Shown in pieces: positions 56,417 through 63,937 of a stretch of 64,000 bases of DNA. The notes beneath the pieces were generated by a model that saw nothing but the letters and a program-made list of their open reading frames with translations, did not search any database and had not been told where the DNA came from. The stretch is from Bacteroidota bacterium (GTDB lineage Bacteria; Bacteroidota; Bacteroidia; UKL13-3). Every line of letters starts with the position of its first letter. Within the stretch, counting starts at the first letter, position 1. Position numbers and translations under genes: made by a program. The stretch spans positions 62,001-126,000 of the forward strand of contig JAIXWD010000020.1 of NCBI GenBank assembly GCA_027482225.1, in the 5' to 3' direction.

Positions 56417-57577
56417 TTAAAAAATATTTTTTATACCTAAACCTAATATTTTGTATTGATAATCGGTGTTACTTATTGTTTCTATTTTATTTTCTAACTG
56501 AAATATTCCTGTAATACGTATGGTTTTTGAAATATGTTTTGTAATGGATAATGCGTATCTATTTCGCGTAATATCAAAAGAATTATGAAGTAAAAATGCA
56601 TTTTGTTCTGTAAAGTTACGTGTATTGGCTTGTAAATAGCTCACAATTATATTTAATGAATTAATTGGTGAGTAATTAAGGTTATAAGATGTAATAATGT
56701 GTGATTTTTCGGTAAGGTTATTTGCATCTATATTAAGTATAAGCTTGGTGTTATTTAACGGGTAGTATGTTATTCCCGAAACTATTTGGAGTTGATCCAT
56801 ATAGTTTAAATTAGATTTTATGACATTGATTCCAAACAAACAATTTTTATAAAGTTTACTTGTTCCTAAACCCAAAACGTATTGTTCGCCTGATAATATT
56901 TGATTGCCAGTTAAATCTGAAGGATAGTTGGTAAGATTATATTCTGCTAAATGCATTATTCCAATAATTTTCCATCCTTTTTTTAGTGCTAATGATGTAT
57001 TCAGGTAATATTGTATTTGAGCTATATCTCCATAAAAACTATTTTGACTTAGATAAGTTATCCCATGGTAAGTAAGCAAATATTTTATAGGGAAAGTTGT
57101 ACCAATAGAAAGAAAATTTAAATTATTATATAGGCTCGTATTGTTACTTATTTTACTTCCAAAATCAAAATTAACAACATTATTTTTAACTTTATTTTGT
57201 TCACTTAATTGCCCGCCTTTTAATAGTTTGTATTGAGCTGTATTACCATGAGTATATTGTTGTGTTGCCCAGAAACAATAAGCAAGTTTTAATAATACCG
57301 CACTATCCGTTGGAAAATCGTGTAATGCATATTGTAAGTATGCATGTTGTTTAAATGGTTTGTTTAAAATATATGCGGCATCTGCAGCCATTTCAAAGGC
57401 CTCATGGTATCCAATGCCTATTTTGTGAATACTATCAGTGATTTGAATTACATTTTTCCAATTTCCTTTATTGTATTCTTCTTTAATTAATTTATCTACA
57501 CCTGAATTATAATACACTTGTGAGTTGGCACAAACAAACACAAAACAAAGTACAAAAAGAGATGTTAGTTTGTACAT
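56417..57577 (-). CDS. TPR-like N-domain plus outer-membrane beta-barrel protein (YaiO-like)
   Basis: 386 residues. A signal peptide (1-19) is followed by a helical TPR-like region (about 25-130, with EAFEMAADAAYILNKPFKQ). Then comes a long run of alternating polar/hydrophobic strands that ends in IKNIF, the aromatic C-terminus typical of outer-membrane barrels. The layout, TPR then barrel, is that of YaiO-type proteins, but I cannot confirm this family. It overlaps the 3' end of the urea-transporter/M23 gene by 13 bases, so the two are almost certainly translated from one message. It likely forms the outer-membrane part of the system. Confidence 0.75.
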   Translation of the reverse strand: MYKLTSLFVLCFVFVCANSQVYYNSGVDKLIKEEYNKGNWKNVIQITDSIHKIGIGYHEAFEMAADAAYILNKPFKQHAYLQYALHDFPTDSAVLLKLAYCFWATQQYTHGNTAQYKLLKGGQLSEQNKVKNNVVNFDFGSKISNNTSLYNNLNFLSIGTTFPIKYLLTYHGITYLSQNSFYGDIAQIQYYLNTSLALKKGWKIIGIMHLAEYNLTNYPSDLTGNQILSGEQYVLGLGTSKLYKNCLFGINVIKSNLNYMDQLQIVSGITYYPLNNTKLILNIDANNLTEKSHIITSYNLNYSPINSLNIIVSYLQANTRNFTEQNAFLLHNSFDITRNRYALSITKHISKTIRITGIFQLENKIETISNTDYQYKILGLGIKNIF

Positions 57578-59754
57578 GTTATTGTTTGAGCTGATTTATG
57601 GTTTGGGTTAATAACAATTTGCATCAGTTTGCCATCTTGTATTACTAATTTATAATTGCGCTCTTTTGTTTTTGAGTTAAAGTTGTATGCTTCAATTTTA
57701 CTCTCCATAACTATGTATGTAGGTGCTATCATATCGTCTATTTGTTTAAAATTCACCTGATAACTTACCTTTTTAAAAAGATAAAATGGAGCAATAATAT
57801 CCTGAAACCACAATGTAATAGGGTGATTAAATAACCCAATATCAATACTGTCTTTTATTGTTAAATCAGGATAATAGCCCAAGAGAATTTTATATGCTGC
57901 CAGATAAAAATCAAATAAATACGATTTTTTTGAACCGTGGTAACTGGTAAAATAAAATGTTGTACCATTATTTACAAAATAGGCGTATGCTTTAGTTTGT
58001 TGGCAATACAAATAGGTTTTATTCCATGCATCAACCATGCATTCCCAATTAATGCTAATTTTATTTCCTGCGTTCAGTATGGTTTCAAATGTAATTATTT
58101 GACCAGGTGTAAAATGTAAAGCTTTACCTAATAAAGGAGTTTTTATAGGTTGATGAATTTGGGCCCCTTCTTCTGGTATTTCGTTTTCGTGAAATTGGTA
58201 TTTTTCGTTTACCCTGCTTATAAAATGGTTTATGTGATAGCTTAAAGTTGCTGATCCAATAAAAGGAGTTGATTGCATTTGGAAATGCAAATGTGGTTCT
58301 GGCGATCTGCCAGAGCTTCCAGAGCTTGCCAACATTTGTCCTGCCCTTACATAATCGTTTAATTTTACCAGCATGGAATTCGCTTTTAGGTGTGATAGTT
58401 TACTATATAAGCCATCCGCATGTTTAATTACAATGCTATTTCCCCAGTTTTCTATCAAATCAACATCACCAATCTTATTGTCTTCTATACCATCAGCAAT
58501 TTCTACCACAAATCCATCTGCAGGTGCAAGTATTGGTAAGTTATAACAGTAAAAGTCTGTAACAGATGTACCAAGTGATTTAAAAGTATGCTTAGTTTCA
58601 TCCACTACAACAAAATCTAATGCATCACTCCAATTTTCTTTATGAGTTATTTTGCCATTATACCCCTGCGAAACAAACCACTCTCCAAAAAATGGTAGTT
58701 GAATATTAACCCATTTACTATTTTTGAATCGTGTGACATTATTGGAATAGTTGTACTTGTTTTTTTCGGGCGAAAAATTTTGATAGGTAACAGGAATTAA
58801 CCTGTGCAGGTAGGACCTTTGGCTTAATAACATCAACACAATTAATACTGTGATAACAAATGGGAAGGAAAATAATGGAAGTTGATATACAATTAGAATA
58901 CCATTTAAACCACTGATCAAAATGCCTATAATGGGCATTGATATGATAGCTAACATAAATGAAGCACGTGAAGGTATGAGATAAAAACCTCCTAATGCTA
59001 TTGCAGTAAGAATAAAGTTAAACCCAATATAACTGTAGTAAAGTTGAGAAAACTCTCCTGATAAGCCAAAATAAAATAGGTATCCTATACTAAATCCAAT
59101 AATGGAAAGTATAAATGCTATTCTCGACCAAATGATTAATCCAATTAAAATTAGGAAGCCTGCAATGATGTTGTATTGGAAGAATACTGCTGAGAGTGAT
59201 TTTAAATACACATCAACCACTTCAGGAAGTTGAATTTCCTCCATTTTGTTCATGAAGTTTACGAAACGATCGCCACCTAATAAATACCAATCGTTGTATC
59301 TGTATATGCTACTTTCGCTAAGTGTAATGTTATTATATGTACGAAGCCCAATAGTTATTAACCAAAGGCTAAATAGAAAAGATAAACTTAACGATGGTAA
59401 TTGGTATTTGGCCAAAACTGTATTGAACCAAACTGCAATAATTACACTAAGAATTGCAGCAACCAATAACAGCAGCAAATATGATGGTGTTATTTGATAT
59501 TGCGACCCTAAAACGAGGCCAATCATTAACGCATTATAACTATATACTCCATGGCCAATGTGTGTCCTATTTAATCCAATCCAATACGAAAAAGCCAAAC
59601 CAGACATGGTTGCTATGGCCCCGCTAATTCCCATAATGGGACTAACAAAAGAAGATAGCAATAGTAACCACGCAAATGTTTTACTATCTGCGAAAAACAA
59701 TTGCGAATAACTATTTATAAATCCTTTTCCGAATAATTGAATGTGGCTTTTCAA
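57565..59754 (-). CDS. Urea-transporter domain fused to an M23 metallopeptidase domain
   Basis: 729 residues. Residues 15-315 are about ten hydrophobic helices in two homologous halves of the UT urea-channel fold. The first half has FINSYSQLFFADSKTFAW and IGHGVYSYNALMIGLVLG; the second has LKSLSAVFFQYNIIAGFL and YIGFNFILTAIALGG. A linker (about 315-350) leads to an M23 LytM-type peptidase with intact ligands: His371 (THKENW), Asp380 (ALDF), His455 (KLSHL), and His488/His490 (PEPHLHF). The peptidase is followed by about 230 residues of unknown beta-rich sequence. The topology places the peptidase in the periplasm, where it could cut peptidoglycan stems or an exported substrate. Urea itself as solute is uncertain. 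Confidence 0.85.
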   Translation of the reverse strand: MKSHIQLFGKGFINSYSQLFFADSKTFAWLLLLSSFVSPIMGISGAIATMSGLAFSYWIGLNRTHIGHGVYSYNALMIGLVLGSQYQITPSYLLLLLVAAILSVIIAVWFNTVLAKYQLPSLSLSFLFSLWLITIGLRTYNNITLSESSIYRYNDWYLLGGDRFVNFMNKMEEIQLPEVVDVYLKSLSAVFFQYNIIAGFLILIGLIIWSRIAFILSIIGFSIGYLFYFGLSGEFSQLYYSYIGFNFILTAIALGGFYLIPSRASFMLAIISMPIIGILISGLNGILIVYQLPLFSFPFVITVLIVLMLLSQRSYLHRLIPVTYQNFSPEKNKYNYSNNVTRFKNSKWVNIQLPFFGEWFVSQGYNGKITHKENWSDALDFVVVDETKHTFKSLGTSVTDFYCYNLPILAPADGFVVEIADGIEDNKIGDVDLIENWGNSIVIKHADGLYSKLSHLKANSMLVKLNDYVRAGQMLASSGSSGRSPEPHLHFQMQSTPFIGSATLSYHINHFISRVNEKYQFHENEIPEEGAQIHQPIKTPLLGKALHFTPGQIITFETILNAGNKISINWECMVDAWNKTYLYCQQTKAYAYFVNNGTTFYFTSYHGSKKSYLFDFYLAAYKILLGYYPDLTIKDSIDIGLFNHPITLWFQDIIAPFYLFKKVSYQVNFKQIDDMIAPTYIVMESKIEAYNFNSKTKERNYKLVIQDGKLMQIVINPNHKSAQTITCTN

Positions 59755-59760
59755 TAGTTG

Positions 59761-61137
59761 TTATTTTAAAATATCTGATGCAAGTTCATGCTTTCTTAAA
59801 AAATCTGGCATAACTTCACTCGATTCTATATTTTCTATCGTTTCTTTATTGCGAATTAAATGCGATTTTCCATCAGTACCAATGATTACTACAGCAGGTC
59901 GCATAGCAATAAACTGCATCCATTGTGTCATGTTATATGCACCAACTGTATGTACAACTACATGGTCTTCTTTTCTTAATGGTGGCAAGGTAATATGACT
60001 TCTTACTACATCAATATTCATACATAATGGGCCATACATTACTGTGTCTTCCGTATAAGAACTAAATTCTTGCGCAGGGCTAATTTTATGATCGTACCAA
60101 AAAGAGGTGAACAAAATATTTACACCAAAATCCATAATGGTAGCTCTTCTTCCATCGCTTAAGCGTTTATTCGCTAGCACGCTTCCCAATAAATAACCTG
60201 CCTCATCAATTAGTGCCCTACCTGTTTCTAAAATTAGAAGTGGTAAATCACTTTCGGTAAATCCTGCATTTAGTAGTGCTGTGGTAATAGATTCTGCAAA
60301 TTGATCTATGGTAGGAGTGGTGTCGGCACCCGGAAGAAATGAACCTTTCAACGTATTTTTAGATGCAAAACCTCCACCCATATCGATGTATTGAATTGTT
60401 TTGCCGAATTTCTTTTTTATTCCCAATGCCAAATCAGATAACTTATAAGCTGCTGTAGCATATGCTTGAGGCGATAACATGAAAGTACCGATGTGACAAT
60501 GAACACCAATTAACTCAAGTCTATTGCCTAAAATTATTTTATTGATTGCATCCCATGCTTGTCCGTTTTCGTAGTTAAATCCAAAACGATCCCACATTGG
60601 ATAAATACCCGTATCCATATTTACGCGAATAGCAACATTTGGTCGTTTATTCATTTCTTCGGCTAACTCAGTTAAACGATAAAGTTCATCAAGATGATCA
60701 ATGTGGATAGGTGAGTTATTAGTTATTGCAAGTCTTAAATCATCATCACTTTTGTCAGGGCCGTTAAAAATAATTTTTGGTCCAGGTACTCCGTTGTTAA
60801 TTGCTTTTTGGTATTCAAACCCCGAAACAACTTCTGCCCATGATCCTTCTTGATGGAATATATTGCATACCGCATTGATATAATTGGTTTTATAACTCCA
60901 TGCGAATTGCACTTTGGGGTATCTAGTTTTAAATGCACGAACAGCCTCTCTGTATGTGTTTCTTATGGTTTCCTCACTTAGAACAAATAGTGGAGATCCG
61001 TATTCCTTTATCAAATCTTTTACTGCCAAACCATCAATATGACTTACAGGTGCATATTCTGTTTTGGTACCGAATTTATTCATCATTCCAGTATTGATTC
61101 TTTGTATTAAGGGGCGTTCGTAAATTTGCTTTTTCAT
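59761..61137 (-). CDS. PLP-dependent decarboxylase, DAP/ornithine decarboxylase (fold III) family
   Basis: 458 residues. The PLP lysine is Lys83 in FAWSYKTNYINAV. VHCHIGTFML (His213/His215), IQYIDMGGGFASKNTLK (the glycine loop, 254-257), LETGRALIDEAG (ExGR phosphate/substrate site) and YGPLCMNIDVV (Cys372, the partner-subunit cysteine) complete the active site of alanine-racemase-fold decarboxylases. DapDC is normally about 420 residues; this one has an N-terminal extension of about 30. As it lies between an ATP-grasp ligase and a transporter-peptidase rather than with lysine genes, it probably acts on a dedicated diamino acid or on a peptide-bound residue. Substrate not determinable. Confidence 0.85.
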   Translation of the reverse strand: MKKQIYERPLIQRINTGMMNKFGTKTEYAPVSHIDGLAVKDLIKEYGSPLFVLSEETIRNTYREAVRAFKTRYPKVQFAWSYKTNYINAVCNIFHQEGSWAEVVSGFEYQKAINNGVPGPKIIFNGPDKSDDDLRLAITNNSPIHIDHLDELYRLTELAEEMNKRPNVAIRVNMDTGIYPMWDRFGFNYENGQAWDAINKIILGNRLELIGVHCHIGTFMLSPQAYATAAYKLSDLALGIKKKFGKTIQYIDMGGGFASKNTLKGSFLPGADTTPTIDQFAESITTALLNAGFTESDLPLLILETGRALIDEAGYLLGSVLANKRLSDGRRATIMDFGVNILFTSFWYDHKISPAQEFSSYTEDTVMYGPLCMNIDVVRSHITLPPLRKEDHVVVHTVGAYNMTQWMQFIAMRPAVVIIGTDGKSHLIRNKETIENIESSEVMPDFLRKHELASDILK

Positions 61138-61154: not shown

Positions 61155-62201
61155 TTATAATTCACCTAGGGTAGAAATGATTTCAAATTCTTTCAGGTCA
61201 ACAATTTTATCGTATGAATAACGGATAAACATTTTACCAGTTTCATAGCTTTCATAAGGCTTTACATCTTCGCCAAGCGCAAGCCTAACAAGTGCTTCGG
61301 GATGATTTTGCCCCGCACCAACTGCTAAATAAACCCATGCTGGAAACCTTGGATTAATCTCAATCAAATAATATTCTCGCTTATCTGTTTTTATCATTTC
61401 CAATTCAAAACCACCTCTCCATTTATTTCCTTTTAACATGTTGCGAGCAATATTCATAAGGGTTTCGTCTTCTAAAGCTATACCAGCCCAAGCTTTGCCC
61501 TTATCTGTTATATATGTTTTGCGCATTGGCACAGCACCAATTAAATTTCCTTTTCCATCGCCAATTCCAGTAAGGTTTACTTCTATTCCTGGTGTAAATT
61601 GTTGTATTATTATAGGTAGTCCCCACTTGCTGCTTATTTTGTTAAATGCTGCCATGGCTTGATCTGGTGAATAGGCAACTGTTGCATCATAAAATTTGCC
61701 TTTAACTACTAATGGATAGCCGAATTCATGTGTTAATGCATGTATTTCGGCTGTACTATTAATTTGTTTACTTTTTGGCACCTTAATGCCATACTTTTCT
61801 CCAAAAGTATTTAAAGCCCATTTCTGTCTTTCTTCAAACTGCTCTAGTGCGGGCAAAAATGTATCTATACCCATTTTTTTTAGCGTGTCTTGAAGTTTTA
61901 TGAAGTTAAACAATTCCGCATCAAAGTTGGGAATTAATACATCAATTTTTTCTTGCTGATGTATGTATGTTAAACGAGTAATTAAACTTTGTTGACCGGC
62001 TGATGGTAGCGGTATTTGGTATGTTTTATCTACCAAATCGTGCATATAAATTCCCGGCTCCATTGTGTCGTATGATAAACCAATAATTCGAATTTCAAAT
62101 AGTTCGCTGTCTTTGAGTGCACGAATAACTGGTATGCCGGGACCAGGACTGTCAATGTTATTTAAACCTGAAACAGCAATAGTAATCTTCCGTTTACTCA
62201 T
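61155..62201 (-). CDS. ATP-grasp carboxylate-amine ligase
   Basis: 348 residues from ATG 62201-62199 (MSKRKITIAVSGLNN). The N-terminal part resembles the pre-ATP-grasp domain of CarB-like proteins (VSGLNNIDSPGPGIPVIRAL). The ATP-grasp core has PLVVKGKFYDATVA (phosphate/ATP-binding Lys), GIEVNLTGIGDGKGN, and GGFELEMIKTDKREYYLIEINPRF in part (acidic Mg ligands, NPRF). Such enzymes join a carboxylate, as an acylphosphate, to an amine. It overlaps the PqqD-like gene by eight bases and is followed by the decarboxylase gene after 17 bases. The acid and amine are unknown; an amino acid amide or peptide is inferred. Confidence 0.87.
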   Translation of the reverse strand: MSKRKITIAVSGLNNIDSPGPGIPVIRALKDSELFEIRIIGLSYDTMEPGIYMHDLVDKTYQIPLPSAGQQSLITRLTYIHQQEKIDVLIPNFDAELFNFIKLQDTLKKMGIDTFLPALEQFEERQKWALNTFGEKYGIKVPKSKQINSTAEIHALTHEFGYPLVVKGKFYDATVAYSPDQAMAAFNKISSKWGLPIIIQQFTPGIEVNLTGIGDGKGNLIGAVPMRKTYITDKGKAWAGIALEDETLMNIARNMLKGNKWRGGFELEMIKTDKREYYLIEINPRFPAWVYLAVGAGQNHPEALVRLALGEDVKPYESYETGKMFIRYSYDKIVDLKEFEIISTLGEL

Positions 62202-62442
62202 GGTAATCGGTAAGGTTAAATTGTTCAATCATTTTCAAAAAATCATATAAATCTTTTTCAATGGTTTCTTTATCAGTTTGGTAATCTTCAATTACCCTGT
62301 TTCTAATAGCATCTTCCGATTTGCCTTCTTGTAAATCTTTTAGGATGCTCAATCCAATTGGGTTTACCGAAAAAGAATCTCCATTTCCTGGATTAAATAC
62401 AAATCCTGTATCGCTTAGTGCGATATTCTTTAATAACTTCAT
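62194..62442 (-). CDS. PqqD-like (RiPP recognition element fold) protein
   Basis: 82 residues. The pattern FSVNPIGLSILKDLQEGKSE then DAIRNRVIEDYQTDKETIEKDLYDFLKMIEQFNL is that of the PqqD fold: a short beta hairpin and a helix pair, with the hydrophobic spacing of LNxxGxxIWxLLxxxxxxxEI. PqqD-like proteins hand a precursor peptide to a modifying enzyme. The adjacent ATP-grasp enzyme would be the natural partner, and the genes overlap. No precursor-peptide gene is visible between the operon genes, so the substrate may be elsewhere or may be a carrier-bound group. Confidence 0.8.
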   Translation of the reverse strand: MKLLKNIALSDTGFVFNPGNGDSFSVNPIGLSILKDLQEGKSEDAIRNRVIEDYQTDKETIEKDLYDFLKMIEQFNLTDYHE

Positions 62443-62456
62443 TTCAGTTAAGTTGT

Positions 62457-62996
62457 TTATGGTAAGGGGTAATGTTCATCTTTGGCTTGGTTATTTTGAT
62501 GCATTGCACCAGGTGCATGTGGACGTGGTGGTCTCATTAGCATACGCATTACTTCATCAATAATTACATCAAAATGTTGTTGTTGCTCAGCAGTGCAAAT
62601 TGCCCTCACTTTTCTAAAATGATTAAACGTGATGTGCTCAAGTTTCTCTTCATTTTGCATTATTCGAGCAATGTGTTGGTATGATGCAGTTGTATCTGGT
62701 TGGTCACTTTTTAACAAGTCGTACATGGCATCTTTTTCTACACGGATATTATCTTGTATATTTTTCATTTCTTGAAAATGTTCCTGACGAAGTTCTTCAA
62801 AAACTTTTTGTTGTTCTTTGTTTAAATCAAGTTTGCTAATGATAAAATCTTTCGGACCACCGATTGGTGCATGTGTTGTTATCATAGATAACGTGCTGAA
62901 GTCGATATATCTCCAAATGCTAGCAATTGTGCTTACATTAAGTATGGTTAATAAAATAACCAAAGTAAGCAACAGTTTAGTTTTGTTTATTCTCAT
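62457..62996 (-). CDS. Membrane-anchored Spy/CpxP/CnrX-like periplasmic sensor
   Basis: 179 residues. One N-terminal helix (about 8-28) anchors the protein and the rest is periplasmic. Two LTxxQ-like repeats, LDLNKEQQKVFEELRQEH (near residue 54) and ICTAEQQQHFDVIIDEV (near 132), are separated by helical coiled segments. A Pro/His-rich tail (RPPRPHAPGAMHQ) could bind metal. This is the layout of the heavy-metal-sensing CnrX/ZraP group and of Spy/CpxP stress proteins. It lies third in an operon after an ECF sigma factor and a short anti-sigma candidate, as in CnrYXH sets. The signal (metal or envelope stress) is not known. Confidence 0.75.
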   Translation of the reverse strand: MRINKTKLLLTLVILLTILNVSTIASIWRYIDFSTLSMITTHAPIGGPKDFIISKLDLNKEQQKVFEELRQEHFQEMKNIQDNIRVEKDAMYDLLKSDQPDTTASYQHIARIMQNEEKLEHITFNHFRKVRAICTAEQQQHFDVIIDEVMRMLMRPPRPHAPGAMHQNNQAKDEHYPLP

Positions 62997-63005
62997 GATT
63001 ATAAA

Positions 63006-63320
63006 TTAATAAAAGTAACTTGAAACATGCTCGTTGCCGAAATATTCTTGTGCTATCTTATGCAATTCCATTTGTTCATTTATTTGTTTTTGGGGTTGTT
63101 TAGTTACAGTCCAAATGGTTATCGCATTAAGCGAAATAAAAACTACTCCTGTAACAGCAATGCGCAAAAACCATGCTCCCGTATAATAAATTGGCTCTGG
63201 TGTTCCCGTTTTAATACGATTAATAATCTTATTGAACAAAAATGGAGATGCTTCCGCTCGTTGAATACTGTGTATGCTATTTACAGTATCGTCAATTATT
63301 TTATTGTTTGAATTAGTCAT
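63006..63320 (-). CDS. Short single-helix anti-sigma factor candidate
   Basis: 104 residues. A hydrophilic N-terminal half of about 45 residues (cytoplasmic) is followed by one strong membrane helix (WFLRIAVTGVVFISLNAITIW, in part) and a short polar tail. There is no family signature and no FecR domain. The place directly after an ECF sigma gene and before a periplasmic sensor, with single-spanning topology, is that of CnrY-like anti-sigma factors. It starts right after a seven-base-pair hairpin (63321-63342). The call rests on topology and context. Confidence 0.6.
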   Translation of the reverse strand: MTNSNNKIIDDTVNSIHSIQRAEASPFLFNKIINRIKTGTPEPIYYTGAWFLRIAVTGVVFISLNAITIWTVTKQPQKQINEQMELHKIAQEYFGNEHVSSYFY

Positions 63321-63342
63321 CTGTTATTTAGAAGTATAACAG
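63321..63342 (-). promoter_or_regulatory. Hairpin touching the anti-sigma start codon
   Basis: CTGTTAT and ATAACAG form a perfect seven-base-pair inverted repeat with an eight-base loop in the 44-base gap between the sigma and anti-sigma genes. Its last base touches the ATG, so it may lower translation of the anti-sigma or act as an operator. Inferred. Confidence 0.4.
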
Positions 63343-63364
63343 CATCAAAACTTGCGTTAACTGT

Positions 63365-63937
63365 TTATTTATTTTTATAATATTCAGATAACGTGATTCT
63401 TAAATTTCTAGTTGCCCTAAAAAGGAGCGATTCTACACTTGATGTTGTGGTATTCATTATTTCTGCAATTTCTTGATAAGATAATTGTTCAATTTTACTT
63501 AAAGTAAATGCAGTTTGTTGTTTAATAGTAAGCTTACTTATGGCCAAAAATAATACACTTGCATGTTCTTTGTTTTCAAGTGCAACACCTGGGTGTTCGA
63601 AATGCGGTTTATCATATACCAACTTATTTTCTTTATTAAATAGTGAGGTAAGTTGGGCAAACCTCTTTTTAGTTTTTTGTCTCTTTAAATAATCGTAACA
63701 TTTGGTTATGGTTATTTTATATATCCAGGTTTTTAAGGTCGATTCTTGTCTAAATTTTCCAATTGATTTATGTATTTCTATAAATACATCTTGGGTAATA
63801 TCTTCTGCTTCTGATTGTTGTTGCAAAATACTTAAAGCAGTGTTATATACCATGTTTGTGAACATGTTATAAAGCATTTTAAAAGCGGCTTCGTCACCAC
63901 CTAATATAGCTTCAATTAACTCTCTATCATTAAGCAT
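63365..63937 (-). CDS. ECF-type sigma-70 factor
   Basis: 190 residues of the RpoE/SigW-like ECF class. Region 2 runs over about residues 25-90 (AEDITQDVFIEIHKSIGKF, the -10 recognition helix, then TLKTWIYKITITKCYDYLKR). A linker of about 40 residues follows, then region 4 at about 130-185 (IEQLSYQEIAEIMNTTTSSV, the helix-turn-helix). Regions 1 and 3 are absent. It opens the nine-gene operon and probably controls it and its own transcription. The 10-base palindrome AAGTATACTT just upstream of the start may be a regulatory site. Confidence 0.93.
   Translation of the reverse strand: MLNDRELIEAILGGDEAAFKMLYNMFTNMVYNTALSILQQQSEAEDITQDVFIEIHKSIGKFRQESTLKTWIYKITITKCYDYLKRQKTKKRFAQLTSLFNKENKLVYDKPHFEHPGVALENKEHASVLFLAISKLTIKQQTAFTLSKIEQLSYQEIAEIMNTTTSSVESLLFRATRNLRITLSEYYKNK

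Follow-up and report, generated by a model that had tools for sequence, protein, structure and literature searches.

The UT-M23 gene described here encodes a urea transporter (UT) channel domain and an M23 peptidase domain in one polypeptide, and the protein may be, with a probability of roughly 40%, the inner-membrane part of a conserved operon for the biosynthesis and export of a small molecule, with the M23 domain at the cytoplasmic mouth of the channel. The gene lies near one end of the window, i.e. the whole stretch of 64,000 nucleotides of Bacteroidota DNA that was analysed, together with genes for three cytosolic partners and two exported proteins (Table 1).

Table 1. The UT-M23 gene, its domains and the other operon genes, by position in the window
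Feature	Position	Strand	Basis and remarks
Exported TPR protein, 201 aa	55802..56407	(-)	Pfam TPR; 34/37 loci; signal peptides
Exported TPR + β-barrel-like outer-membrane protein, 386 aa	56417..57577	(-)	signal peptide, C-terminal aromatic residue
UT-M23 fusion gene	57565..59754	(-)	729 aa; TTG start 59754, stop 57565
C-terminal β-rich domain, residues 505-729	57568..58242	(-)	AF2, Foldseek; without Pfam family
M23 peptidase domain, residues ~353-505	58240..58698	(-)	Pfam PF01551, E 1.2e-15; invariant ligands; fold
UT channel domain, residues 13-309	58828..59718	(-)	Pfam PF03253, E 3.3e-52; Foldseek dvUT 3k3f; pore residues altered
Alanine-racemase-fold PLP decarboxylase	59761..61137	(-)	nearest FigC/FslC, DAP decarboxylase; co-occurs with fusion
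ATP-grasp ligase	61155..62228	(-)	profile matches; locus conservation
PqqD-like small protein, RRE fold, 82 aa	62194..62442	(-)	Pfam PF05402 above its cut-off, E 4.6e-10; TbiB1, E 3e-6; position conserved

The fusion and its distribution

The fusion is confirmed. The UT domain scores 177.9 bits in Pfam (cut-off 25), and the Peptidase_M23 match covers residues 405-494 with 57.9 bits (cut-off 28.7). The whole chain was modelled by AlphaFold2 from an alignment of 36 sequences with a pLDDT of 89. In a Foldseek comparison, the channel half resembles dvUT (3k3f; target-normalised TM 0.84) and the middle part the LytM/M23 domains of DipM, EnpA and EnvC (TM about 0.7). Chance can be excluded, since 32 further species in the sample have the same open architecture, at identities of 27-40%. 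An earlier, sequence-only reading of this DNA had placed a UT channel and an intact M23 site in one frame, and Pfam, fold and homologues all agree with it, its coordinates and residue numbers being correct. Two of the checks that it proposed, a structure prediction of the full chain and a family-wide search for the architecture, recovered both folds and found relatives of the same design. It left the minus strand unstated, and it overlooked the operon, which says more than any other part of the context.

The last 230 residues or so, which the same reading had left unassigned, indeed match no family in a Pfam search. Modelled alone, as it had also suggested, the 225-residue C-terminal domain gives a confident β-rich fold (AF2 pLDDT 89). 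The domain is fast evolving, and its best solved matches are LolA/YmcC-like half-barrels, a weak resemblance (Foldseek E 3e-3, TM ≤ 0.36) that falls short of an assignment. At one locus (L067, 1810-3408), a 532-residue relative stops just past the M23 domain, and the C-terminal domain can therefore be missing.

In a sample of 395 genomes drawn across Bacteroidota, 44 contain a UT domain scoring over the cut-off. The fusion is the commoner form (34 of the 44), in one frame in 33 genomes and in two frames in another, while ten genomes have a stand-alone UT. Among 58 relatives of the window's own genome, 24 carry the fusion, with identities of 38-100%. A search of 72,556 plasmids returned no full-length relative of UT-M23.

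In the two-frame case (G005, locus L063, 9950-10100), the gene is broken at a T7 run between UT and M23, and one additional T restores the frame, so that the split is probably a base-calling or sequencing error. It had been considered as natural evidence for a cytoplasmic M23 domain, which in the split form lacks a signal peptide, but was dropped for this reason and is not used as evidence on topology. Both ends of another contig (G124, C1) were also peculiar: a second, partly broken UT-M23 copy is found there, with an equal-scoring decarboxylase match at the contig start. These may perhaps be the overlapping ends of a circular contig.

A conserved operon

Segments of at most 20 kb that include the fusion gene were surveyed in 33 genomes and three MAG contigs (L032-L067). 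The gene order is PqqD / ATP-grasp / decarboxylase / UT-M23 / (barrel) / TPR, the barrel gene preceding the TPR gene in some clades and following it in others. ATP-grasp and decarboxylase genes are present in 37 of 37 loci, the PqqD-like gene in at least 31 and the TPR gene in 34. Neighbouring genes mostly overlap by 4-16 bp or are separated by less than 25 bp; in the window, the gene for the 386-residue barrel-like protein shares 13 bp with the fusion gene, its position being conserved in one clade. This protein has no Pfam match, and the barrel proteins were recognised by features alone and not through a family or a structure. Both the TPR and the barrel proteins carry signal peptides. For the ATP-grasp gene, the ATG at 62201 fits the family and is probably the true start, not the TTG listed upstream.

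Orthologues of the decarboxylase were sought in the same 395 genomes at E 1e-80 and were found in exactly the 34 that have the fusion and in none of the other 361 (Fisher p 7e-50, a value that overstates independence since the species are related). The one-to-one match itself is independent of this caveat about kinship. Moreover, the divergences of the UT, M23 and C-terminal parts, the decarboxylase and the ATP-grasp ligase are strongly correlated across 32 loci (r 0.80-0.93; 0.80-0.91 for UT, M23, decarboxylase and ATP-grasp). The constant company of enzyme and export genes suggests a role in the pathway of some small molecule, and not in taking up urea or cleaving the cell wall. A defence system was also considered and rejected, there being no PADLOC match.

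Directly upstream of the operon in the window (62457-63937), the encoded products are an ECF-type sigma factor, a small membrane protein and one Spy/LTXXQ-like protein. These are shared by the window's three closest relatives and are absent from most other loci.

The decarboxylase retains the PLP lysine and the HIGT, GGG and C/D motifs. Among solved relatives, the N-citrylornithine decarboxylase FigC (7kh2, E 9e-54) is the nearest and has GPxCMxxD and VGAYN in common with it; diaminopimelate decarboxylases and BtrK follow. With the FslC model it scores 225 bits against a curated cut-off of 500, which makes it a related enzyme and not the same one. FigC, SbnH, AcsE, MccE and BtrK fall into one group of decarboxylases that has no relation to polyamine synthesis, and several of its members use citrylated amino acids (PMC7857480). 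The closest solved relatives, FigC/FslC and BtrK of the butirosin pathway, act on conjugated amino acids, and formation of an amide conjugate by the ATP-grasp ligase, followed by decarboxylation, is a natural reading of the present operon. Such a conjugate-type decarboxylation is the slightly favoured prediction. The operon differs from those of FigC, FslC and BtrK in having an ATP-grasp ligase and a PqqD-like protein in place of an NIS synthetase or an acyl-carrier protein.

The PqqD-like protein resembles PqqD and the RREs of RiPP systems (TbiB1, MftB-like) in being a small RRE fold encoded upstream of modifying enzymes. Unlike in those systems, no precursor peptide was found: apart from the PqqD-like gene itself, no small ORF is conserved in the surveyed loci. 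A role for this protein as a carrier, through a conserved C-terminal Glu, was rejected, as its C-terminus is not conserved.

The M23 domain and its relatives

The M23 site is intact, as the sequence-only reading had stated: the five zinc ligands H371, D380, H455, H488 and H490 are unchanged in 33 of 33 non-redundant homologues. The domain shares the H...D...HxH ligands and the fold of LytM-type M23 enzymes such as DipM, ShyA and lysostaphin. It differs from them in its first motif, where H-x8-D is embedded in LPFxGEW..(T)H..W..AxDF, in the attached channel, in its predicted location on the cytoplasmic side and in being encoded in an operon with biosynthetic enzymes.

Members of the same subfamily (LPFxGEW...H...AxDF), at 33-41% identity, are found in haloarchaea, Thermus and Thermomicrobium (loci L090-L095; e.g. 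WP_309138759 and WP_266081979). Like the fusion protein, they have a hydrophobic N-terminal anchor, but this anchor is not a UT and they are without the C-terminal β domain. None of the operon enzymes was observed next to these genes. Haloarchaea are not known to have peptidoglycan, and the M23 subfamily is therefore not tied to that substrate. In a tree of M23 domains, nearly all of the fused ones cluster, at about the same distance from the anchored domains as from the exported ones, while that of L067 falls elsewhere. NCBIfam also gives a weak hit to PRK06148, a model that presumably describes M23-like domains within soluble multidomain enzymes and can be taken as a lead.

Orientation in the membrane

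The two repeats of UT channels are linked by a periplasmic loop (PMC2868824), which places both termini in the cytoplasm. In the fusion protein, the ten-helix UT fold also has its N- and C-terminal ends on one side, and neither the model nor the sequences show a hydrophobic segment or extra membrane helix between UT and M23. The loops on the side of the termini have a mean K+R count of 8.4, compared to 1.8 on the linker side, and the former is the larger in 32 of 32 homologues; the corresponding values for stand-alone UTs are 11.8 and 1.6. With the usual charge bias and no extra helix, the M23 and C-terminal domains are predicted to be cytoplasmic. This topology is predicted and not proven, but the M23 domain is probably on that side. 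The earlier proposal that the channel end and the peptidase come together on the periplasmic side is not supported by the charge bias or by the uninterrupted connection.

The alternative is that UT is inverted and M23 is periplasmic, where it would open or remodel the peptidoglycan at the site at which the TPR and barrel proteins cross the envelope, with the pore passing the small product of the operon. The nearest stand-alone M23 relatives in Bacteroidota have signal peptides or lipoboxes and are thus exported, as are the products of the genes downstream of the fusion. The fused M23 domain itself is exported-like according to a composition classifier (mean P 0.83), while the C-terminal domain is ambiguous; this is a simple classifier trained on 200 proteins from the collected loci, with an AUC of only 0.83. 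The weak fold matches of the C-terminal domain, including the LolA type, are also mostly to periplasmic proteins. However, an inverted UT would be expected to show a shifted positive-inside pattern, and it is unmoved, the linker-side loops being almost devoid of K and R in 32 of 32 homologues. The C-terminal domain has a Cys content of 0.76%, like the cytosolic operon enzymes (0.5-0.7%) and above the operon's exported proteins (0.1-0.2%), but exported stand-alone M23 proteins also reach 0.78%. The occurrence of the subfamily in haloarchaea also counts against a role in peptidoglycan remodelling. The alternative is rather unlikely.

An altered pore

Residues T130, T294 and E187 line the urea path of dvUT. 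Pore positions were compared by alignment to dvUT, its sequence taken from the PDB alignment, for 32 fused homologues and nine stand-alone Bacteroidota UTs. In the fused family, T130 is replaced by S in 30 of 32 and T294 by V, S or A in 29 of 32, while the E187 position is A, L, F, S, Y, I or M in all 32 and E or Q in none; the stand-alone proteins keep T, T and E/Q in 9 of 9. The hydrophobic part of the UT slot, which has been described together with its "oxygen ladder" (PMC2868824), is retained, with F27 kept as F in 32/32, L84 as L in 32/32, F190 as F in 28/32 and L247 as L in 26/32. The fusion protein therefore has the fold, the two repeated halves, the slot residues and the charge bias of dvUT, Yut and UreT (PF03253, TC 1.A.28), but differs from them in its three replaced pore residues, its lack of linkage to urease and the attached M23 and C-terminal domains. 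It scores 101.8 bits with the NCBIfam yut model, below the cut-off of 274.6.

Urease was counted only as a bona fide urease alpha subunit, excluding matches with E of about 1e-5 to 1e-4 over about half of the profile or less. By this count, 6 of the 10 genomes whose UT stands alone have urease, but only 1 of the 34 with the fusion (Fisher p 2e-4). In five of the six, it lies within about 7 kb of the UT on the same contig; in the single fusion genome, it is on another contig. None was found in the whole genome from which the window derives, which extends the sequence-only reading's remark that nothing nearby encodes urease. Urea, one of the solutes that it had considered, is disfavoured, as both pore threonines and the pore glutamate are replaced in the family. 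That reading had named two findings that would count against it: loss of the M23 ligands, which are instead invariant, and loss of the urea-pore residues, which has largely occurred.

The loss of polar pore residues from a retained fold could mean that UT is a non-conducting, trimeric membrane scaffold that clusters the M23 domain, the C-terminal domain and the operon enzymes at the inner membrane, and the stand-alone M23 relatives of haloarchaea and Thermus do have unrelated anchors at the equivalent place. Nevertheless, a plain anchor would have no need of the conserved slot F and L residues, and this alternative is unlikely. It is very improbable that the protein is a genuine importer of urea, ammonia or another small amide with a periplasmic peptidoglycan peptidase attached, as first proposed, since UT fold and slot residues are kept but the urea-path residues, the association with urease and the predicted topology all point the other way.

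Proposed mechanism

The favoured reading remains that of an inner-membrane component of a biosynthesis and export operon. The PqqD-like protein, the ATP-grasp ligase and the FigC/BtrK-kind decarboxylase would act in the cytoplasm to produce a metabolite that is amide-linked and decarboxylated. At the cytoplasmic mouth of a pore derived from a urea channel, the M23 domain would then cut an amide or peptide bond of the pathway, so that the product is released or trimmed. The small product might exit through the modified pore, and the TPR and barrel proteins would then assist its passage across the outer membrane. The direction of transport, the identity of the solute, the release step and the M23 substrate are points that we only infer. 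One argument against this reading is that the UT pore, with a width of 2-3 Å (PMC10541013), would be narrow for an acyl-diamine.

In its fullest form, which is a tentative proposal and somewhat doubtful, this would be a trans-envelope metabolite system made up of a UT-derived channel, an M23-type amidase at its cytoplasmic mouth, the PqqD-like, ATP-grasp and conjugate-decarboxylase partners and a TPR/β-barrel exit, in which a small amide metabolite would be made, trimmed and released. If true, one of its parts would be an M23 enzyme whose substrate is not peptidoglycan.

Concluding remarks

No description of a UT-M23 fusion or of the operon was found in the open-access literature. The fusion is more general than one sequence could show: the operon is present in about one in twelve of the sampled Bacteroidota genomes, and most UT domains there are of the fused form. 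Such proteins are prone to being mislabelled as urea transporters or as cell-wall peptidases, and the result cautions against both. It marks out a subfamily of UT proteins whose pore is altered, suggests that some M23 domains have substrates that are not peptidoglycan and offers a compact, testable gene set for a metabolite pathway.
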